This document shows, one piece after another, positions 24,071-34,665 of a DNA stretch of 36,393 bases. Under the pieces are notes generated by a model, which saw only the letters and a program-made list of their open reading frames with translations, ran no database searches and was not told where the DNA came from. The position numbers and the translations under genes were made by a program. Source of the stretch: Actinomycetota bacterium (GTDB lineage: Bacteria; Actinomycetota; Actinomycetes; S36-B12); NCBI GenBank assembly GCA_017857875.1, contig JAFMCH010000015.1:1-36393 (forward strand), read 5' to 3'. Position 1 is the first letter of the stretch, and each line of letters starts with the position of its first letter.

Positions 24071-24079
24071 GTGAACGCT

Positions 24080-25198
24080 ATGAGTCATAACATGCTGCCG
24101 CCGGCCCCTGTCGTGCTCAATGGCGCACCTGTTGCGTTGGTCGGTCCGGTGCGTATCTATGTCTGTGGAGTGACACCGTATGGAGTGACCCACCTCGGGC
24201 ACGCGGCGACCTTTGTGTGGGTCGATGCCCTGGCTCGAATCCTGCGACATGCCCACCTTGAGGTGGAGGTCACCCGCAACGTCACCGATGTCGACGACGT
24301 GTTGACCAAAGCCGCGCAAACCGCGAACACGCCCTACGACGAGTACGCCGCTATGCAGCAGTACCGCTTCGATCACGATATGGCCGCCCTCGGCGTGCGG
24401 CGTCCCGATCACGAACCGCGCGCCCACCGCCATATCGGCGAGGTCGTTCGACTGGCGCAGGGACTTATCGATTCCGGTCACGCATACGAGGCGAACGGAT
24501 CGGTGTACTTCATCGGCCGCGGTTGCCTGGAGCACAGTGGAGTAACGCAGGAGCAGGGCCTGCAACTATGCGAGGAGTTCGGTGAGGATCTGGATGATCC
24601 CCATAAGCGTGACCGACTAGATACACCTGTGTGGCGGGCTTCCTCGGGTGCTGATCCTGCGTGGCCGAGCCCGTGGGGCATGGGTCGCCCAGGGTGGCAC
24701 GCGGAATGCGCAGCGATGGTGCTGCACAGTTTCGGCTCGAGTGTGGATATTCATGCCGGTGGCAAGGATTTGGCGTTTCCGCACCATGCATTCGAATCAG
24801 CCCAAGCCGAGGCCTTTACCGGGGTCACCCCGTTTGCCCGATCGTGGATGCACGTGGGAACCGTCGGGATAGACGGCGCGAAGATGGCGAAATCCACGGG
24901 CAACCTGGTGCTCACCGACGACCTACTGACCGAGCACCGGCCGGCTGCGATTCGGTTGTATCTGCTTGATCGCCGTTGGTCGCAAGACTGGGAGTACGAG
25001 CCCCGGGCCCTGGTCGCGGCCGAAGGCCGACTGGATGCGCTGTACGCGGCTGCAGGACGACGTGGCAACGACGCTGCACAGGTGCATGTGATGCAGAGCC
25101 TGCTTAACGACCTTGATGTTCCTCGAGCACTGGATATCGCTTTGGAAGAAGGAGGGCGCGCCGCGCGAGACCTGACACACGTGTTGGGACTTGGCTGA
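24080..25198 (+). CDS. mshC: Probable L-cysteine:1D-myo-inositol 2-amino-2-deoxy-glucopyranoside ligase (mycothiol synthesis)
   Basis: MshC joins cysteine to GlcN-inositol with ATP in mycothiol synthesis. The 372-residue product is a class I cysteinyl-tRNA-synthetase fold with zinc-site Cys29 in YVCGVTPYGVTHLGHAAT. MshC has THLGHA where CysRS usually has HIGHA. It continues with GRPGWHAECAAM, DIHAGGKDLAFPHH and KMAKSTGN (KMSKS-like) at 268-275. It is shorter than CysRS because the C-terminal tRNA-binding region is missing, which favours MshC. MshC proteins are usually about 410 residues, so this one is slightly short. Starts GTG 24071 and ATG 24080 are possible. Its TGA overlaps the tetR ATG by one base. 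Confidence 0.82.
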   Translation: MSHNMLPPAPVVLNGAPVALVGPVRIYVCGVTPYGVTHLGHAATFVWVDALARILRHAHLEVEVTRNVTDVDDVLTKAAQTANTPYDEYAAMQQYRFDHDMAALGVRRPDHEPRAHRHIGEVVRLAQGLIDSGHAYEANGSVYFIGRGCLEHSGVTQEQGLQLCEEFGEDLDDPHKRDRLDTPVWRASSGADPAWPSPWGMGRPGWHAECAAMVLHSFGSSVDIHAGGKDLAFPHHAFESAQAEAFTGVTPFARSWMHVGTVGIDGAKMAKSTGNLVLTDDLLTEHRPAAIRLYLLDRRWSQDWEYEPRALVAAEGRLDALYAAAGRRGNDAAQVHVMQSLLNDLDVPRALDIALEEGGRAARDLTHVLGLG

Positions 25199-25779
25199 TG
25201 GGACGCCGAATGGGCGATGATCGACGAGAGGAAATCATCGGTGAGGCTGCGCACTTGTTCGCGCGCAACGGTTTTCATGGCACATCAATGGATGATCTAG
25301 GCACCGCGGTGGGCATGAGTGGCCCGGGTTTGTACCGCCACTTTTCCGGCAAGGAAGCAATCTTGTCGGCGATGTTGATCGACATCAGTGAGCGCCTACT
25401 CTCCGGGGGTCGGCAGCGGGTAAGCGCTCATGATGACCCCCAGGAACGATTGGCGGCCCTGGTGGCCTTCCACGTGGAGTTCGCCCTCGACAACCCCGAA
25501 CTCATCGATGTGCAGGCGCGCGACCTTGATGCGATGACCCCTGACGATCAGCGCACGGTACGGCGGCTGCAGTCGCAGTACGTGGCGCTTTGGGTGGCGA
25601 CGATCGAGCAGATTTGGCCTGAGGTATCAGCCGAAATGGGGCGAGCCGCCGCCCATGCAGCATTCGGCCTGATCAATTCAACCCCCTACAGCGCTCGGTT
25701 GACACGACCAGACATGGCGCGGTTGCTGCAGCGAATGGCCACCGCCAGCGTGACCGCGGTCGCCGAGGCAAGTAGTTAA
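25198..25779 (+). CDS. TetR family transcriptional regulator of the downstream leucine-catabolic operon
   Basis: A 193-residue TetR-type repressor. The N-terminal HTH is REEIIGEAAHLFARNGFHGTSMDDLGTAVGMSGPGLYRHFSGKEAIL (about 9-55), and the variable helical ligand-binding domain follows. The start ATG shares a base with the mshC stop (TGATG), so it is probably expressed from the mshC transcript. An 18-bp near-perfect palindrome overlaps its own stop codon and the putative promoter of the carboxylase operon 65 bp downstream. Control of that operon is therefore likely, with an acyl-CoA intermediate a plausible ligand. That is inferred from position, not shown. Confidence 0.9.
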   Translation: MGRRMGDDRREEIIGEAAHLFARNGFHGTSMDDLGTAVGMSGPGLYRHFSGKEAILSAMLIDISERLLSGGRQRVSAHDDPQERLAALVAFHVEFALDNPELIDVQARDLDAMTPDDQRTVRRLQSQYVALWVATIEQIWPEVSAEMGRAAAHAAFGLINSTPYSARLTRPDMARLLQRMATASVTAVAEASS

Positions 25780-25791
25780 CGATCGTTTACT
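25774..25791. promoter_or_regulatory. 18-bp palindrome, likely TetR operator
   Basis: AGTTAACGA (25774-25782) and TCGTTTACT (25783-25791) are inverted copies with one mismatched pair; the core AACGATCGTT is perfect. The site covers the tetR stop and the putative -35 of the leucine operon. Its length and symmetry are typical of TetR-family sites. Confidence 0.65.
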
Positions 25792-25799
25792 GATTCTGC

Positions 25800-25805
25800 T
25801 AGACT
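25800..25805 (+). promoter_or_regulatory. Putative -10 element (TAGACT) of the leucine-catabolic operon
   Basis: TAGACT is 18 bp downstream of TTAACG (25776-25781), which lies within the palindrome. Transcription would begin near 25812, leaving a leader of about 32 nt that contains GGGAG (25832-25836), 7 nt before ATG 25844. Confidence 0.5.
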
Positions 25806-25843
25806 CTGCGACTGTCCCTACCAGGTGCATCGGGAGATAAAGA

Positions 25844-27451
25844 ATGCCGATCCTGCAATCTTCGATGTCGAGTGACGAGCAAGTCGCCTCAGCGCGCAGG
25901 TCATCGCACGAGGAACTCATCGCTGATCTGAATGATCGAATGAGCGCTGCGGCTCTGGGCGGTTCGCCCGCTTCGCGGCAGCGTCACATCGAGCGCGGAA
26001 AACTGCTGCCTCGCGATCGCGTCAACACCCTGGTTGACCCCGGCACTGCCTTCTTGGAATTCTCGCCGTTGGCAGCTGATGGCGTCTATGAAGACCAGGT
26101 GCCGGGCGCCGGAATCATCACCGGTATTGCTCAGATCAACGAACGCCTGTGCGTGATCATCGCGAACGACGCCACCGTGAAGGGGGGCACCTACTTTCCC
26201 TTGACGGTAAAGAAACATCTCCGTGCCCAAGAGATCGCTCGGGAAAACTCTTTGCCGTGCGTTTACCTGGTTGATTCTGGTGGAGCGTTTCTCCCGCGCC
26301 AGGATGAGGTTTTCCCTGATCGCGAACACTTCGGGCGCATTTTCTTCAACCAGGCCACTATGTCCGCTGAGGGAATCCCGCAAATCGCCGCGGTGATGGG
26401 CTCGTGCACGGCCGGTGGCGCGTACGTGCCGGCGATGAGCGATGAGGCGGTGATCGTGCGAGATCAGGGCACGATCTTCCTGGGCGGTCCACCTCTGGTC
26501 AAGGCAGCCACCGGAGAGATCGTCACCCCCGAAGAGTTAGGTGGCGGTGACGTGCACAGTCGAGTCAGTGGAGTGACCGATCACCTAGCCGATGACGACG
26601 CGCATGCACTTCGGATCGTGCGCGACATCATCGCCACCCTGCCCGCGCCCGCATCCGCGCCCTGGCAGGTGCTCACTCCTCGGCCACCGCTCCACGATGT
26701 CCAAGAATTGCTCGAGGTGGTTCCCGCCGACACGCGCACGCCGTATGACGTTCGAGACGTCATCGCACGCATTGTTGACGGTAGTGAGTTTCACGAATTC
26801 AAGGAGAACTACGGCGCCACCCTCGTGACCGGCTTTGCACATATCGATGGTCACCCGGTGGGCATCATCGCTAATAACGGAATCTTGTTCAGTGAGTCGG
26901 CACTCAAGGGAGCACACTTCATTCAGTTATGCGATCAGCGCAAAATTCCCCTCGTGTTCCTGCAAAACATCTCCGGCTTCATGGTCGGTCGCGATTACGA
27001 GGCGGGCGGCATCGCCAAGAACGGCGCCAAAATGGTCACCGCCGTGGCCTGTGCCCGCGTGCCCAAACTGACCGTGGTCATCGGCGGATCATTCGGCGCC
27101 GGTAATTATTCGATGTGCGGGCGCGCGTATTCTCCGCGTTTTCTGTGGATGTGGCCCAATGCGCGCATTTCGGTGATGGGCGGTGACCAAGCAGCTGCGG
27201 TGTTGTCGACCGTGCGGCGTGATCAGCGGGAAGCGGCTGGTGATAAGTGGAGTGCGGCGGAAGAAGAAGCGTTCAAGGCGCCAATTCGTGCACAGTATGA
27301 GGAGCACGGAAACCCCTACTACGCAACGGCTCGACTATGGGACGACGGAATTATCGACCCTCGAGACACGCGCCGCGTGCTCGGATTAGGTCTTGCTGCT
27401 GCTGCCCAGGCACCACTATCGCCGGTTTCCTACGGCATCTTCCGGATGTGA
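25844..27451 (+). CDS. accD1: Acyl-CoA carboxylase carboxyltransferase (beta) subunit, methylcrotonyl-CoA carboxylase type
   Basis: The beta subunit moves CO2 from carboxybiotin to 3-methylcrotonyl-CoA, giving 3-methylglutaconyl-CoA in leucine breakdown. The 535-residue product has both crotonase-like halves. The first has [45 protein letters not shown] and [16 protein letters not shown], with [18 protein letters not shown] at the acyl-CoA site. The second has [43 protein letters not shown], and [33 protein letters not shown] at the biotin site. The [21 protein letters not shown] and [10 protein letters not shown] blocks favour methylcrotonyl- over propionyl-CoA carboxylase. ATG 25844 has GGGAG upstream. 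Its stop overlaps the next start (TGATG). Confidence 0.92.
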
Positions 27452-29409
27452 TGACGATGACTCAACTGCGCAACATCCGGTCAGTGCTGGTGGCGAATCG
27501 CGGGGAGATCGCCGTTCGCGTCATGCGCACCTTGGCCCGCCTGGACGTACGCAGCGTTGCCGTCTACAGCGATGCTGATGCCGAGGCCCTGCACGTGGCC
27601 ATCGCCGATAGCGCGGTCTATCTGGGCCCGACCGCCGCGCAAGACAGCTATCTCAACGTTGACCGCGTCATATCCGCTGCATTAGCAAGTGGGGCCGATG
27701 CTATTCATCCCGGTTACGGTTTCCTGTCGGAAAATACTCGGCTTGCGCAAGCGTGTGTCGATAACGGCATCGTCTTTATTGGGCCACCCGCGGCTGTCAT
27801 TGAGCAGATGGGCGACAAGATCCAAGCAAAGGTGACGGCCATTGAGGCGGGAGTGCCGGTCGTCCCGGGTAGACATGACCCGGCGATGTCGGACGCTCAG
27901 GTGACCGAGGCGGTGCTGGCGATCGGTTTTCCATCGCTGCTCAAGCCCTCTGCCGGCGGGGGTGGCAAAGGCATGCGGATTATTCGCACATCTGATGAGA
28001 TCGCCGGTGCGATCGAGTCTGCTCGCCGAGAGTCCCTCGGGGCTTTTGGTGATGACACACTCTTGGTTGAGCGGTTCGTCGACCAACCCCGACATATCGA
28101 GGTGCAGGTGTTGGCCGATACGCACGGCAATGTGGTGCACCTGGGAGAGCGTGAGTGCAGTCTGCAGCGACGGCACCAGAAGGTCATCGAGGAATCCCCG
28201 TCGCCGCTGCTGGATGATCATGCGCGACAAGCGATCTGCGCTGCCGCGGTGCGACTAGCACAATCGGTGAATTACGTGGGTGCGGGCACGGTCGAGTTCG
28301 TGGTGCCGGCATCTGCCCCCATGGATTTCGCCTTTTTGGAGATGAACACGCGTCTGCAGGTGGAGCACCCGGTCACCGAGGCAGTCACCGGCATTGATCT
28401 GGTGGCTGAGCAGATTCGTATTGCCGATGGTCAACCACTTGGCTACGACCAAGGTGACATCCACTTCTGCGGGGTGGCCATCGAGGCACGTATCTACGCC
28501 GAGGACCCGCTGCGTGAATCATTGCCCACCGGTGGGCTCATTGAGGTGTGGGAGGAACCCGAGGGTATTCGGGTGGACTCCGGGGTGCGCGCAGGTGACA
28601 TCGTGACCTCGCATTACGACCCGATGCTGGCCAAGGTGATCTCCGCGGGGGCCGATCGGACGATTGCCATGCGCACTCTCGCGTCAGCACTGTCGTCGAT
28701 GGTGATCTTTGGTGTCGTGACGAACGTTGATTATCTCCGGCAGATTCTGGCCGATGAACGAGTGCAGGCTGGTGATCTGGACACCAATTTGTTGTCCTTG
28801 ATCACGGCTGAAAGTTTATGGGAAGCAACGGGTCCGCCACCGATGGCCGCCGCCGCCATCGTTAATGTCGTGCGCTCAAGTCTGCCGATGGATTCCGATG
28901 TGTGGTCTCGTCGAGATGGTTGGCGAATCGGCGCCGAAGAACCACTGCGGATTGACTGGACTGAGTCAGGCAGCACGTGGCCGCTAGCCGCCCTTGCCGA
29001 CGATCCGGGTGAAGCGATTGATGATGATGCAACGATCTGGCTCGATGGTGACGCGATGTGGTTTCACTCCCCGGGTCAGGGCATCCACCGAGGACACGTC
29101 AGTTGGCCGATTGATCGCCGGCTGCGCCAACCCGCACATACTGCTGGTCAGACTGGGATCTGGACAGCGCGCAGCCCGATGCCGGGCATGATCGTGAACA
29201 TGGGTGTGTCGGTAGGTGATCGAGTCGAGGCCGGGCACACGTTGGTCTCGGTGGAGGCGATGAAGATGGAACACGCGGTGCGGGCGCCCGGTTCGGGTGT
29301 CGTGCAGGCCATTGATGTTGCGGTTGGCCAACAGGTCACCTTGGATCAGCAGTTGGTTGAGATCGCGTTAGGTGACGATGACGAGGGCGGCAGCCACGAT
29401 GACCAGTGA
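27451..29409 (+). CDS. accA1: Acyl-CoA carboxylase biotin carboxylase/biotin carrier (alpha) subunit, methylcrotonyl-CoA carboxylase type
   Basis: A 652-residue biotin enzyme. The N-terminal biotin carboxylase domain begins IRSVLVANRGEIAVRVMRTL, has the ATP-grasp loop KPSAGGGGKGMRII, ERECSLQRRHQKVIEE, and EMNTRLQVEHPVTEAVTGIDLV. A central linker follows, and the C-terminal biotinyl domain has MPGMIV and EAMKMEH, with the biotinylated Lys at about 605. ATG 27451 (MTMTQ) shares a base with the beta-subunit stop; ATG 27457 is also possible. The upstream in-frame stretch from 27337 lies inside the beta gene and is not real N-terminus. It works with the preceding subunit. Its last 11 nt overlap the lyase gene. 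Confidence 0.93.
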   Translation: MTMTQLRNIRSVLVANRGEIAVRVMRTLARLDVRSVAVYSDADAEALHVAIADSAVYLGPTAAQDSYLNVDRVISAALASGADAIHPGYGFLSENTRLAQACVDNGIVFIGPPAAVIEQMGDKIQAKVTAIEAGVPVVPGRHDPAMSDAQVTEAVLAIGFPSLLKPSAGGGGKGMRIIRTSDEIAGAIESARRESLGAFGDDTLLVERFVDQPRHIEVQVLADTHGNVVHLGERECSLQRRHQKVIEESPSPLLDDHARQAICAAAVRLAQSVNYVGAGTVEFVVPASAPMDFAFLEMNTRLQVEHPVTEAVTGIDLVAEQIRIADGQPLGYDQGDIHFCGVAIEARIYAEDPLRESLPTGGLIEVWEEPEGIRVDSGVRAGDIVTSHYDPMLAKVISAGADRTIAMRTLASALSSMVIFGVVTNVDYLRQILADERVQAGDLDTNLLSLITAESLWEATGPPPMAAAAIVNVVRSSLPMDSDVWSRRDGWRIGAEEPLRIDWTESGSTWPLAALADDPGEAIDDDATIWLDGDAMWFHSPGQGIHRGHVSWPIDRRLRQPAHTAGQTGIWTARSPMPGMIVNMGVSVGDRVEAGHTLVSVEAMKMEHAVRAPGSGVVQAIDVAVGQQVTLDQQLVEIALGDDDEGGSHDDQ

Positions 29410-30358
29410 CGACAATACGACTGGTAGCAACGTGCCAGAGATGTTTCGTTCGCTGCCCAATCGCATCCGAATCTGGGAGGTCGGACCTCGCGATGGGCTG
29501 CAAAACGAAGCGACTGCAGTGTCGACAGAGATCAAGTTGGAGTTCATAGACCGACTCGCCGACGCTGGCCTGAGCGTGATTGAGGCGACCAGTTTTGTGC
29601 ATCCGACATGGGTACCTCAGTTGGCAGACGCTGATGCACTATTCGCCGCGCTGAATCAGCGTGCTGGAGTGGTCTACCCGGTACTGGTTCCCAATGAGCG
29701 CGGTCTGCAGAGGGCACTTGTGGTGGGTGCCTCTGACGTTGCGGTATTTGCCAGCGCGACGGAGACCTTCGCCCGTAAGAACCTCAATCGCACCTACGAC
29801 GAGCAGTGGGCGATGTTTGAACCCGTGGTGGCACAGGCGCGCGCCGAGGGTTTGACGGTGCGGGGTTACCTGTCTATGTGTTTCGGTGATCCGTGGGAAG
29901 GATCGGTTGCGCCAGCACGCGTTGTCGATGCCGTGCAACATCTACGTGATCTTGGCTGCGGCGAGATCAGCCTGGGCGACACGATTGGTGTCGGTACTCC
30001 CGTTCAAGTGGCCGCCGTCATCACTGAGATTGCTGAGGCAGGAGTTCCGATTGAGTCTCTGGCCATTCATTGCCATGACACCTACGGTCAAGCACTCGCA
30101 AATACCGTGGCAGCTATTTGCGCTGGAGTGACGACGGTGGACGCATCAGCCGGCGGTCTTGGCGGTTGCCCCTATGCGCACTCAGCTACCGGGAATCTGG
30201 CAACGGAGGATCTGGTCTACGCGTTGCGGGGCATGGGAATCGACACCGGGGTTGATCTGGATCAGTTGGTGGCCACAAGCACGTGGATGGCGACCCACCT
30301 CGGGCGCCCGAGTCCATCGCGTGTCGTGCGAGCATTAGCCACAAGTGAGACGCCGTAG
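29399..30358 (+). CDS. Hydroxymethylglutaryl-CoA lyase
   Basis: Cleaves HMG-CoA to acetoacetate and acetyl-CoA, the last step of leucine breakdown. The 319-residue product has VGPRDGLQNE (metal-binding Asp32), ATSFVHPTWVPQLAD, ASATETFARKNLNRT, the HCHDTYG metal histidines, and the catalytic-cysteine loop GLGGCPYAHSATGN with Cys257, the HMG-CoA lyase signature. ATG 29399 overlaps the alpha-subunit gene by 11 nt; a shorter start at 29441 is possible. TIM-barrel length is normal. Position in the operon matches the pathway step. Confidence 0.93.
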   Translation: MTSDDNTTGSNVPEMFRSLPNRIRIWEVGPRDGLQNEATAVSTEIKLEFIDRLADAGLSVIEATSFVHPTWVPQLADADALFAALNQRAGVVYPVLVPNERGLQRALVVGASDVAVFASATETFARKNLNRTYDEQWAMFEPVVAQARAEGLTVRGYLSMCFGDPWEGSVAPARVVDAVQHLRDLGCGEISLGDTIGVGTPVQVAAVITEIAEAGVPIESLAIHCHDTYGQALANTVAAICAGVTTVDASAGGLGGCPYAHSATGNLATEDLVYALRGMGIDTGVDLDQLVATSTWMATHLGRPSPSRVVRALATSETP

Positions 30359-30375
30359 CTAGCCAGGGAGTGCAC

Positions 30376-31530
30376 ATGAGCCATCAGCTTTCGTCCGAAC
30401 TCTCGCAACTTAAGGCGACGGTCGCGGAATTTTCCCGCGACGTCATCAGTCCTGTGATCGGTGATCTCTACATCAAGCATGAGTTCCCCTACGACATTGT
30501 TCGGCAGATGGGGGAGCTCGGGCTTTTTGGTCTTCCGTTTTCAGAAGACGTCGGCGGAATGGGTGGTGACTACTTCGCGCTATGCATTGCGCTGGAGGAG
30601 ATTGCCCGCGTTGACTCCTCGGTCGCGATCACACTCGAAGCGGCTGTCTCGCTCGGTGCCATGCCGATTTATCGTTTCGGGACATCCGAGCAAAAACAGC
30701 GCTGGCTGCCTTCATTGGCCAGCGGACAGATGCTGGGTGCGTTCGGGCTTACTGAGCCTGGTGCGGGATCTGACGCTGGAGGTATGCAGACCACGGCTCG
30801 ATTAGACGGGGATGAATGGGTCATCAATGGGGCGAAGGCGTTCATCACCAACTCCGGCACCAGCATCACCGGATTGGTCACCGTAGCGGCCATCACCGGC
30901 ACCAAGCCCGATGGACGTCCGGAGATCTCCACGATTATCGTGCCCGCAGATACGCCAGGATTCTCAGTCGATCCCGCGTATTCCAAGGTCGGCTGGAACA
31001 GCTCGGATACTCACGGATTGTCGTTCACTGATTGCCGCGTGCCTCGTGCGAATCTCCTCGGTGAGCGCGGGCGGGGTTATGCGCAGTTCTTGCAGATCCT
31101 TGACGAGGGCCGCATCGCGATCGCCGCGCTGGCAACCGGGTTAGCCCAAGGATGTCTGGATGAGTCCATCCGCTACGCCCATGAGCGCCAAGCCTTTGGT
31201 CACCCGATCGGTCACTATCAGGCCGTGTCGTTCCTGATCGCTGATATGGACGTGCGAGCGCACACCGCAAGACTCGCCTACTACGACGCGGGTTCACGGA
31301 TGCTCTCGGGCGAGCCATTCAAACGTGAAGCCGCTATCGCAAAGATTCATTCCTCCGATGCGGCCATGGAAAACTCTCGCTGGGCTACACAGGTCTTCGG
31401 CGGCTACGGGTACATGAATGAATACCCGGTGGGCCGTTTCTATCGAGATGCCAAGGTGCTGGAAATTGGTGAAGGTACAAACGAGGTGCAGCGAATGCTG
31501 ATCGCCCGCGAACTTGGCCTCCCGCACTAA
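30376..31530 (+). CDS. Acyl-CoA dehydrogenase, isovaleryl/branched-chain acyl-CoA type by context
   Basis: A 384-residue acyl-CoA dehydrogenase. It has GAFGLTEPGAGSDAGGMQTTA, WVINGAKAFITNSG, KVGWNSSDTHGLSFTDCRVP, ERQAFGHPIGHYQAVSFLIADM, QVFGGYGYMNEYPVGRFYRDAKVLEIGEGTNEVQRMLIARELGL. ATG 30376 has CAGGGAG 5 nt upstream. Its place between the lyase and ligase genes suggests isovaleryl-CoA to 3-methylcrotonyl-CoA, the step before the carboxylase. However, the canonical catalytic Glu (about 366, in GEGTNE) is present, whereas animal and Liu-type isovaleryl-CoA dehydrogenases have GAGTSE and use a Glu elsewhere. The enzyme may be a broader short/branched-chain dehydrogenase like mycobacterial FadE19. 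Confidence 0.88.
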   Translation: MSHQLSSELSQLKATVAEFSRDVISPVIGDLYIKHEFPYDIVRQMGELGLFGLPFSEDVGGMGGDYFALCIALEEIARVDSSVAITLEAAVSLGAMPIYRFGTSEQKQRWLPSLASGQMLGAFGLTEPGAGSDAGGMQTTARLDGDEWVINGAKAFITNSGTSITGLVTVAAITGTKPDGRPEISTIIVPADTPGFSVDPAYSKVGWNSSDTHGLSFTDCRVPRANLLGERGRGYAQFLQILDEGRIAIAALATGLAQGCLDESIRYAHERQAFGHPIGHYQAVSFLIADMDVRAHTARLAYYDAGSRMLSGEPFKREAAIAKIHSSDAAMENSRWATQVFGGYGYMNEYPVGRFYRDAKVLEIGEGTNEVQRMLIARELGLPH

Positions 31531-31537
31531 CACGTTG

Positions 31538-32851
31538 ATGGGCCTGCTCAACGGCGCCGAGAGGGCGAATGCGCACACGTTGCTAGAGCATCAGCGCTCC
31601 GCGTGGCGTCGACAGGTTGATTACGTGGCGCGGTCATCAAAGTTCTACAGCAGCCTATGGTCGGGTGTGACACCGCCGGAAGACCTTGACCACATCGGGC
31701 GCCTGCCCTTGGTCGATAAGGAAGACCTGCGTGCTGCACAGCGAGAAGTCCCACCATTTGGGTCTTATCTTGCGGCATCGTCATCAATGGTGACGCGCGT
31801 TCATCGCACCGGCGGAACCACGGGCGAGGCAATGAACCTTGCGCTATCGGCATCTGACGCCCGCACGACCGCAACGGTGGGGGCCAGATCGCAATCTGGA
31901 TCAGGATTAGGGCCTGATGACGTTGTCATTCACTGTCTCAACTACCAGTTATGGATGGGCGGCTTCACTGATCACACCACGTTAGAGGCAACCGGAGCGA
32001 CGGTCGTGCCTTTCGGTGTGGGCAATCCGAGGCTGCTCATCCGCACCATCCAGGAACTGGGTGTGACCGCTATTTCGTGTACACCCAGTTATCCGGCAGT
32101 TTTGGCACAAGTGCTCGCTGAGGATGGCATTGATCCGCGCTCGTTGGGGTTGCGATTAGGACTTTTTGGCGGTGAGGCGGCGCTGGATGTTCCGGGATTT
32201 CGGGAGCGACTGGAAGAAACCTGGGGAATTGCTGCTCGAAACTCTAACTACGGCGTTACCGATGTTATGTGCAACTTTGCCGGTCAATGCACCGAGCAGA
32301 ACGACCTGCATTTCATGGGCCTTGATGTGCTGTACCCGGAGATCATCGAACCCGAGAGCGGTCAATCCCTGATGTGGGAACCCGGCACGCGTGGCGAATT
32401 GGTCTTGACGCACTTGGAGCGTGACTGCCAGCCACTCGTGCGGTTTCAAACTGGTGACATCGTGGAATTGACGGCAATAGACACCTGTGTCTGTGGTCGC
32501 ACGGCACCACGCTTTCGCGTGATCGGTCGCGCAGATGACATGGTGGTTGTGCGAGGCGTCAATGTCTTTCCCACATCGGTGGCCGCACTGATCAACGGTG
32601 ATGCGGAGCTCACCGGTGAATATCGGATCACCCTGGCCGGACCAGGGCCCTATGACCGTTTATCGATCGAAGTTGAGGCCGTGCACACGCCATCGAATCC
32701 CGAGCAGGCACGCGCACACTACGATCAGTTGGCTGAGCGCATCGCAGTGACTGCCCGACGGGATCTTCGCGTGACCGCACAGGTGACCGTTGTGGCCAAT
32801 GCTTCCCTGCCTCGCACGGAGGGAAAAACCAGAAGGGTGGTGCGGTCGTAG
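31538..32851 (+). CDS. PaaK-like acyl-CoA ligase (AMP-forming)
   Basis: A 437-residue adenylate-forming enzyme resembling phenylacetate-CoA ligase PaaK. The phosphate loop is RTGGTTGEAMNL, followed by VIHCLNYQLWMGGFTDHTTLEATGATVVPFG, CTPSYPAVLAQVLAEDG, LFGGEAALDVPGFRE and NYGVTDVM. CVCGRTAPRFRVIGRADDMVVVRGVNVFP comes next, and the catalytic-lysine tail EGKTRRVV ends the protein. It would make an acyl-CoA from a free acid, ATP and CoA. Substrate is uncertain: free isovalerate or an aromatic/short branched acid fits the operon. ATG 31538 was chosen 7 nt after the dehydrogenase stop; TTG 31514 and 31535 are alternatives. Its TAG shares one base with the next GTG. Confidence 0.85.
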   Translation: MGLLNGAERANAHTLLEHQRSAWRRQVDYVARSSKFYSSLWSGVTPPEDLDHIGRLPLVDKEDLRAAQREVPPFGSYLAASSSMVTRVHRTGGTTGEAMNLALSASDARTTATVGARSQSGSGLGPDDVVIHCLNYQLWMGGFTDHTTLEATGATVVPFGVGNPRLLIRTIQELGVTAISCTPSYPAVLAQVLAEDGIDPRSLGLRLGLFGGEAALDVPGFRERLEETWGIAARNSNYGVTDVMCNFAGQCTEQNDLHFMGLDVLYPEIIEPESGQSLMWEPGTRGELVLTHLERDCQPLVRFQTGDIVELTAIDTCVCGRTAPRFRVIGRADDMVVVRGVNVFPTSVAALINGDAELTGEYRITLAGPGPYDRLSIEVEAVHTPSNPEQARAHYDQLAERIAVTARRDLRVTAQVTVVANASLPRTEGKTRRVVRS

Positions 32852-33606
32852 TGGACCCGTTAGTAATTACCGAGCAACACGATCACGTCGTCGTTGTAAG
32901 ACTCAACCGACCCAAGAAATTAAACGCCATCACGCCGGCGCTCGTCGAGCAGTTGTGTCAGGCGCTTGAGCGCGCTCACGCAGATGACTCGTTGGGTGCG
33001 ATAGTGCTCGCCGGTGCGGGGAGTTCCTTCTGCGCCGGCGATGATCTGCATGACTCGACCGCGCACACCGCAGCGCCATCAGCACAGCAAGACTTCGTTG
33101 AACGACTTCAGGATGTGACCAGGCTGCTGATGTTCGGGCGATTACCGGTGGTGGCTGCCGTTCGCGGATGGGCCGTCGGCGGCGGGCTCGAATGGGTCTT
33201 CAACGCTGACTTCGTGGTGGCTGGCGAAACCGCACGTGGATTTTTTCCCGAGATGTCTCTAGGTCTATTCCCCACCGGGGCCATTACCTCGATTCTGCCG
33301 CGTACAGTAGGTGCTGCCAGGGCGCGCCAACTTCTGATGCTGGGCGAACGCATAGATGCAACGCAACTTCTTGACTGGGGAGTCGCGTGCAGCGTTGTAG
33401 CAGACGACGAGGTGGAACAGCATGCGATGGTTCTCGCCACAACGCTGGCAGGGTTACCGACGCGAAGCATTCGAGCGCTTCGGTCCGCACTGCAAGACTT
33501 GACTCGCGACGACATCGATCAAGCGCTGATGCGGGAGACTTCCGCCACGATCGAGGCCTTCGTCGACCCGGAGACTCCGGCAAGGCTGGCCCGCTTGGCT
33601 CCCTGA
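32851..33606 (+). CDS. Enoyl-CoA hydratase/crotonase family, probable 3-methylglutaconyl-CoA hydratase role
   Basis: A 251-residue crotonase-fold protein. The oxyanion loop FCAGDDL is at 60-66. Glu114 in GGGLEW and Glu134 in FFPEMSLGLFP are 20 residues apart, as are the two catalytic glutamates of enoyl-CoA hydratase, so hydration activity is likely. The GTG start overlaps the ligase stop (TAGTG). In leucine catabolism a hydratase is needed between the carboxylase and HMG-CoA lyase, and this is the only crotonase-type hydratase in the operon, so it is the best candidate. That assignment is by context only. It ends 51 nt before the Ntn hydrolase. Confidence 0.88.
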   Translation: MDPLVITEQHDHVVVVRLNRPKKLNAITPALVEQLCQALERAHADDSLGAIVLAGAGSSFCAGDDLHDSTAHTAAPSAQQDFVERLQDVTRLLMFGRLPVVAAVRGWAVGGGLEWVFNADFVVAGETARGFFPEMSLGLFPTGAITSILPRTVGAARARQLLMLGERIDATQLLDWGVACSVVADDEVEQHAMVLATTLAGLPTRSIRALRSALQDLTRDDIDQALMRETSATIEAFVDPETPARLARLAP

Positions 33607-33657: not shown

Positions 33658-34665
33658 GTGTGCACAAATTTTAAAATGAAGCCCGCCACCGATGGTTCGG
33701 TGGTTGTTGGCCGCAGCATGGAGTTCCCCATGGGAATACCGACCGCGCTCGGCGTTCTGCCCATGGGCTACGCGGGCAAGGGTGCCACTCCGGCGGGCAA
33801 GACTTCCGCCCTCGACTGGGTGGCAACCCAAGGCATCGTGGGCATGGCTGCGTTCGGGAACCCGCAGTGGCTCACCGATGGCATGAACACGGCAGGTGTC
33901 TCGATGCATGCGTTGTACATGCCGAACGGATTCTGTGCTTACGCCACATACAAGGGCGATGGCACGGACCTATGCGAAATCGACGTGATCGCCTTCCTAC
34001 TCGGTACGTGTGCGTCGGTCGACGAGGTCCGGGTGGCTGCCGCTTCCATGAATGTGTGGGGAATGGATCCAGGTCTTGGATTCGCGCCCCCGCTTCACTT
34101 CTTAGTCCACGATGCCACGGCCTCGATAGCGATCGAATTCCATGACGAGGGCATCAGGATCGTCGAAAATCCCACCGGAGTGGGCGCGAACTCTCCTTAC
34201 CTCGACTGGCATCTGACGAACCTCAATAACTATGTGGGAGTTCAGTCCACTGCCCGAAAGCCCATCGAGGTACTCGGTGAGAAACTGGCGCCTTTCGGCC
34301 AGGGCAATGGCCTGCTCGGCCTCCCCGGCGACTACACCAGCCCGTCGAGGTTTGTCCGCGCTGCCGCCATGGTTGCCCTGTCCACTGTTCCTGTGGACAG
34401 TTTAGCTTCGGAAATACAGACGTTGCATGTGCTGAACGCCTTTGACATTCCCAACGGAATCATCCAAGAGGAGTCTGGTGGAAAACTCGTTGACGAGGTA
34501 ACGGTCTGGGCGACAATCTCGAATCTGAGCAAGTTGCGATACTCCTACCGCACCAACGGTGACCCCGGTGTGTATTCCATTGAGCTGGCCGATGTTGACT
34601 TCGCAAAGCCCGCTCGCACAGTGCCGATGTCGTGGAATGGTGCATTCACGCCCGTAAAGATCTGA
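33658..34665 (+). CDS. Linear amide C-N hydrolase, choloylglycine hydrolase/penicillin V acylase family
   Basis: A 335-residue Ntn hydrolase whose Cys2 (MCTNF) becomes the N-terminal nucleophile once Met is removed. Conserved blocks are VVVGRSMEFPMG (Arg19), GMNTAGVSMHALYMP, GANSPYLDWHLTNLNNYVG, and the SPSRFVRAAA arginine. It hydrolyses amide bonds of N-acyl compounds. Two known BSH positions differ: the Asp of R-x-x-D is Glu22 here, and the GLNYP-type segment is ALYMP. It is therefore unlikely to be a bile-salt hydrolase and may act on N-acyl homoserine lactones, N-acyl amines or penicillin V-like amides. No signal peptide is seen, so it is cytosolic. The start is GTG 33658. Confidence 0.85.
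   Translation: MCTNFKMKPATDGSVVVGRSMEFPMGIPTALGVLPMGYAGKGATPAGKTSALDWVATQGIVGMAAFGNPQWLTDGMNTAGVSMHALYMPNGFCAYATYKGDGTDLCEIDVIAFLLGTCASVDEVRVAAASMNVWGMDPGLGFAPPLHFLVHDATASIAIEFHDEGIRIVENPTGVGANSPYLDWHLTNLNNYVGVQSTARKPIEVLGEKLAPFGQGNGLLGLPGDYTSPSRFVRAAAMVALSTVPVDSLASEIQTLHVLNAFDIPNGIIQEESGGKLVDEVTVWATISNLSKLRYSYRTNGDPGVYSIELADVDFAKPARTVPMSWNGAFTPVKI

Follow-up and report, generated by a model that had tools for sequence, protein, structure and literature searches.

The window analysed here is a 36,393-nt stretch of actinobacterial DNA (contig JAFMCH010000015.1 of assembly GCA_017857875.1). Its lineage is apparently Candidatus Nanopelagicales, as judged from locus L058, which appears to be identical with contig G001:C191, from the window's genus; L061 and G052:C32 likewise appear to be one contig, so neither pair is counted as independent. 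At the centre of this report is a short palindrome at the junction between a TetR-family regulator gene and a co-directional set of genes for acyl-CoA metabolism, laid out as follows.

25198-25779, plus strand: TetR-family repressor of SACE_7040/BkaR/AccR type, 193 aa (ORF list and profile matches)
25774-25791, no strand: predicted operator palindrome, with the conserved 16-bp core GTTAACGATCGTTTAC at 25775-25790
25800-25805, plus strand: putative -10 element TAGACT (read in relatives by eye; a consensus scan did not recover it)
25844-27451, plus strand: carboxyltransferase subunit, probable methylcrotonyl-CoA carboxylase beta, accD1/liuB type (domain matches and orthologs)
27451-29409, plus strand: biotin carboxylase/carrier subunit, accA1/liuD type (domain matches)
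29372-30358, plus strand: hydroxymethylglutaryl-CoA lyase (above the NF004283 cut-off)
30370-31530, plus strand: acyl-CoA dehydrogenase (profile matches), probable isovaleryl-CoA dehydrogenase by context alone
31514-32851, plus strand: AMP-forming CoA ligase of PaaK type (under the PaaK cut-offs)
32851-33606, plus strand: enoyl-CoA hydratase/isomerase family (profile matches), possible methylglutaconyl-CoA hydratase by context alone

The gene content points to a leucine/isovalerate operon, with the substrate of each enzyme suggested by context. The biotin carboxylase subunit, for which the ATG at 27451 was chosen over a longer start at 27337 in the ORF list, also shows a weak match to the BT domain of methylcrotonyl-CoA carboxylase alpha. 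A choloylglycine hydrolase-family (CBAH) gene follows the operon on the same strand (33658-34665). Directly before tetR lies an ORF of 375 aa (24071-25198) that is CysS/MshC-like, under the curated cut-offs of both models, and the last base of its stop codon is overlapped by the tetR start.

The palindrome itself, AGTTAACGATCGTTTACT, occupies 18 bp (25774-25791) and has dyad symmetry in 8 of 9 pairs, its reverse complement differing at two positions; no match to it with up to three mismatches was seen in 100 shuffled versions of the window (mean 0.00). A preliminary description had reported a near-perfect palindrome overlapping the tetR stop, with TAGACT 8 bp downstream, and all three elements are borne out: the stop codon TAA (25777-25779) sits inside the palindrome and the hexamer begins 8 bp past its end. 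Its 18-bp operator size stands for the palindrome as such, but the unit kept across relatives is only the inner 16 bp (25775-25790). The carboxyltransferase ATG (25844) lies 52 bp past the palindrome, a position that makes the adjoining accD1-type carboxylase operon the candidate target.

The best NCBIfam model of the regulator is NF050111 (SACE_7040 family), at 245.6 bits, or 4.4 under its cut-off of 250, and the second-best reaches 54 bits. The closest solved chains, 6yl2 and 4g12 (E about 3e-38), are annotated only as probable TetR family; we take them to be Rv2506. The window TetR is probably a member of the BkaR/AccR/SACE_7040 family, to which AccR apparently belongs. Among the sampled genomes of the class, 111 of 296 have a TetR match above the NF050111 cut-off.

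BkaR (Rv2506/MSMEG_4718) is a mycobacterial TetR repressor with the 16-bp core GTTA(N)T(N4)A(N)TAAC, which represses accD1-accA1-fadE19, an operon of branched-chain keto-acid and leucine breakdown, and binds a further site before the distant gene fadA4 (PMC3920632). By its operator BkaR belongs to the same TetR family as the window regulator, and it has the same kind of target operon; in M. smegmatis, however, its layout is divergent, with two operators and self-repression, whereas the window tetR is co-directional with a single operator behind it, and the window core has C6/G11 where BkaR has T6/A11. AccR of Streptomyces avermitilis recognizes the 16-nt palindrome GTTAA-N6-TTAAC and represses accD1A1-hmgL-fadE4, with echA8, echA9, and fadE2 as further targets (review PMC10933834), and its ligands are methylcrotonyl-, propionyl-, and acetyl-CoA (PMC8546615). 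AccR thus resembles the window system in operator type and in having an acyl-CoA carboxylase operon as target; ccr, which is preceded by a site in the window's own genome, is absent from the targets given in that review (PMC10933834). PccD of Mycolicibacterium and Saccharopolyspora is described as a homolog of BkaR that acts on genes for acyl-CoA carboxylases, in its case propionyl-CoA carboxylase (PMC11596240), and the site sequence of PccD from S. erythraea differs according to the review (PMC10933834). SACE_7040 of Saccharopolyspora erythraea, the namesake of the model matched by the window TetR, has been described as a repressor of morphogenesis, in text that gives no operator in the sections concerned (PMC3825060). 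Regulator type, operator type, and target, as predicted for the window, are all already known.

The window has a GTTA-N8-TAAC operator adjoining the regulator gene that departs from the motif reported for BkaR and AccR at a single base, its right arm reading TTAC in place of TAAC. Within the family the motif is widespread: in all 30 best-scoring loci of the class a perfect copy occurs in the 250 bp before the HTH coding start of tetR, and 27 of these loci carry two. Locus L041 has GTTAATCGTGACTAAC, identical to an M. smegmatis BkaR site shifted in EMSA, and loci L029, L031, and L037 have GTTAATGACGACTAAC, the second BkaR site reported for that species (PMC3920632). Among the best 80 named loci of 568 relatives, a perfect site lies within 450 bp of tetR in 64 and is absent within that distance in 16; named Streptomyces loci with a divergent carboxylase gene carry paired sites next to it, for example GTTAATGAGCGTTAAC with GTTAACGACCGCTAAC. 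In a set of 168 family sites, symmetrised, with close relatives included and whole loci scanned for L028-L057, the commonest central bases are ACGATCGT, identical to the window core at all 8 positions; these central 8 positions are the only informative ones, since perfect arms were required. The only departure of the window site from the family consensus is at position 14, T for A; its three sister genomes within the genus read C there, their arms being TCAC, or GTGA at the other end. Given this off-consensus position, the window site alone defines the regulon motif less well than the earlier proposal assumed; the motif emerged from many genomes.

Conservation was followed across 59 genomes, the window's own and 58 relatives, in nine of which the TetR was found (E <= 1e-20). 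The pattern GTKAACGATCGTTMAC at up to one mismatch gave 17 sites in 11 genomes, against 6 sites in 6 genomes for the reversed pattern. The genes behind the 17 sites are the carboxylase in eight cases, ccr in six, and an acyl-CoA dehydrogenase in one, while the other two sites, in TetR-less genomes G006 and G023, are near none of 12 tested genes. At this stringency a site is present in 8 of 9 genomes with the TetR versus 3 of 50 others (Fisher 6e-7, shared descent ignored), and one of those three, G020, has a TetR C-terminus at a contig end just before its site. A comparison limited to carboxylase orthologs of at least 70% identity (18 of the 26 genomes with a match) placed the operator before 9/9 genes from genomes with the TetR, G020 included, and before 0/9 from genomes without (p 4e-5 by Fisher's test, shared descent ignored). 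The copy in G009 has two mismatches, and the best upstream matches of the TetR-less orthologs are 4 to 7 mismatches off; the upstream DNA examined came to 304 bases for G058 and 187 bases for G020. Pair identity in nine operator-anchored genomes was 0.89 for the operator, 0.40 to its left (mainly the tetR coding end), and 0.29 to its right, figures in which anchoring somewhat favours the operator; most of the compared sites had, moreover, been located by searching for this very pattern. Apart from the own genome, a DNA search with a 161-base region matched three short stretches, and the operator lay in none of them. Together, the family motif and the co-occurrence of operator and TetR support the core idea of the preliminary description, namely that a TetR-type operator of the adjoining regulator would precede the leucine operon. 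In genome G056 (L013), a family member 54% identical to the window TetR and above the NF050111 cut-off has neither such a site nor a carboxylase gene seen adjoining it; the best carboxylase match in that genome is 54% identical.

Only two sites at 0-1 mismatch of the 16-mer exist in the window's own genome: the window operator and a second at G000:C109:2421-2436, 55 bp ahead of the ATG that starts ccr (crotonyl-CoA carboxylase/reductase; TIGR01751, 598 bits against a cut-off of 379). Its neighbourhood holds methylmalonyl-CoA epimerase, an acetyl-CoA acyltransferase-type thiolase, and meaB. On the ccr side, a half-site GTTAACGA (L018:1485-1492, on the same contig) begins 16 bp from the operator start at 1501, and is perhaps a remnant of the family's usual tandem pair. 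The genome scan proposed earlier with AACGATCGTT does recover both operators among five places, but a 10-bp query proved too short, two of the three non-operator places lying within long ORFs. Weaker own-genome sites are not taken as real, their counts showing no clear excess over controls (22 versus 19 for the reversed pattern at up to three mismatches; 6 versus 14 for GTTAACGNNCGTTAAC at up to two).

The gene ccr is present in 47 of the 59 genomes, and a site with at most one mismatch precedes it in 6 of 9 genomes having both ccr and the TetR (G020 counted) and in none of 38 having ccr without the TetR. Upstream regions were inspected for 30 of the 48 ccr matches in these 47 genomes, the rest being covered by the whole-genome site scan. 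Of the other three genomes having both ccr and the TetR, G021 (L190) carries a 2-mismatch operator copy 82 bases before the ccr match start, and G052 and G056 have no operator there (best 4 mismatches); the one-mismatch site of G052 precedes an acyl-CoA dehydrogenase gene instead. In TetR-less G010 (L189), of the same genus as G021, a 3-mismatch match stands 62 bases before the ccr match start, which may reflect decay of an operator after loss of the TetR. Beyond these genomes, 29 ccr-family loci from 22 genomes, mostly outside the lineage and including six paralogs of 52-57% identity and G052, had no perfect GTTA-N8-TAAC in the 450 bp upstream, and one had a site with one arm mismatch; 21 of the 22 genomes have a TetR above the family cut-off, the 22nd being G052. 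As far as seen, the link to ccr at up to one mismatch would be confined to two genera of the window's family. The literature sections examined, which for AccR come from the review and PMC8546615, do not name ccr as a target of BkaR or AccR.

Because the own ccr site lies in an epimerase/thiolase neighbourhood, synteny with the M. smegmatis fadA4 site was also tested. A general link was rejected: across 28 thiolase loci from 28 genomes, the 700 bp upstream contained no perfect GTTA-N8-TAAC. One-mismatch arm matches were seen at nine of these loci, six of them being one similar sequence in one genus.

The preliminary description further placed the palindrome over a putative -35 element. A sigma-70-type consensus scan of 24900-26100 found no promoter (shuffles mean 0.2), so that no -35 is recognisable as consensus there and this detail is not upheld. 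Read from the sequence, a hexamer 17-18 bp upstream of TAGACT would land inside the palindrome. By eye, a TAGnnT lies 9-10 bp past the 16-bp core in the four genomes of the genus; its distance to a downstream ATG is 7 bp in G001 and G002, an arrangement like that of leaderless transcripts. Were these hexamers -10 elements, the -35 region of the carboxylase gene would be covered by the operator. At the ccr site a TAnACT- or TAGCAT-like element lies instead 2-9 bp upstream of the operator, and a block there would therefore act at the start site.

Computation directly gives the site and its conservation, the protein family, the second site, and the joint occurrence of operator and TetR. We consider it highly probable that the palindrome is the operator of the adjoining BkaR/AccR/SACE_7040-family regulator, a dimer of which would block the carboxylase-operon promoter until released by an acyl-CoA. 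In the proposed mechanism, the TetR dimer would bind the 16-bp core at the junction of tetR with the operon for methylcrotonyl-CoA carboxylase, HMG-CoA lyase, and acyl-CoA dehydrogenase and, from the promoter position suggested above, repress transcription; a short acyl-CoA of the pathway (methylcrotonyl-CoA, propionyl-CoA, or acetyl-CoA, as for AccR) would probably release it. The same TetR would very likely also repress ccr via the like site in its own genome.

Among the alternatives, the one that survives best is an operator read by a different and distant regulator, some other TetR or palindrome-reading factor that also controls ccr. Such a factor would fit the like site before ccr on another contig, as well as the 2 of 17 sites that occur in genomes without this TetR and beside none of the tested genes. 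Yet the motif is the reported operator of the window TetR's own family, the site is missing from every TetR-less carboxylase ortholog compared, and TetR-less G010 has before ccr only its 3-mismatch match, perhaps a remnant; we regard this reading as improbable. A still smaller chance attaches to an RNA hairpin, terminator, or attenuator behind tetR: the tetR stop codon is a usual place for a terminator, but no terminator-like site was found in 24900-26100, RNA folding (-6.9 kcal/mol, z -0.27) is no better than for shuffles, and no T run lies 3' of the palindrome. The palindrome lacks both marks of an intrinsic terminator, a stable GC-rich hairpin and a T run behind it, and was rejected as one. 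Mere chance is the least credible reading, for although short palindromes do occur and the 10-base core is found 5 times in the genome versus 2 for a reversed control, the shuffled windows yielded nothing comparable and the palindrome is kept between tetR and the carboxylase gene although its flanks diverge.

Taken as the operator of the adjoining TetR, the window site appears to be an ordinary and well-supported example of the BkaR/AccR kind. The altered gene layout and the ccr target set it apart from the textbook cases, and the copy before ccr is the less expected finding. Relative to tetR, the carboxylase gene in the 80 best named loci is divergent in 74, co-directional in 3, and off the locus in 3; an MCC-beta-like gene is found on 77 of the 80, and at some divergent loci the distance leaves room for a gene between the two. 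The window tetR and the operon run in the same direction, divergence being a matter of layout and not a defining property of the family. The tetR start overlaps the stop codon before it, and no third site at 0-1 mismatch exists in the genome; transcription of the window tetR therefore probably comes from the upstream gene, without autoregulation.

We lean, with some reserve, towards a scenario in which an acyl-CoA-sensing repressor has been rewired in this Nanopelagicales lineage, coupling leucine/isovalerate breakdown to the ethylmalonyl-CoA pathway, while the divergent, two-operator, self-repressing layout was lost and the regulator became a passenger of its upstream gene. If true, a route of acetyl-CoA assimilation would open when leucine yields acetyl-CoA, and a working ccr site would show a catabolic repressor extended to an anaplerotic gene. 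The comparison would also extend an experimentally grounded regulator-operator pair to uncultivated Nanopelagicales actinobacteria, and predicts a two-site regulon consisting of the methylcrotonyl-CoA carboxylase operon and ccr. One further locus, L116 from an Actinomycetota MAG, carries one perfect site ahead of tetR and a further one 19 bp past the end of the tetR match, a possible intermediate between the divergent and window layouts.
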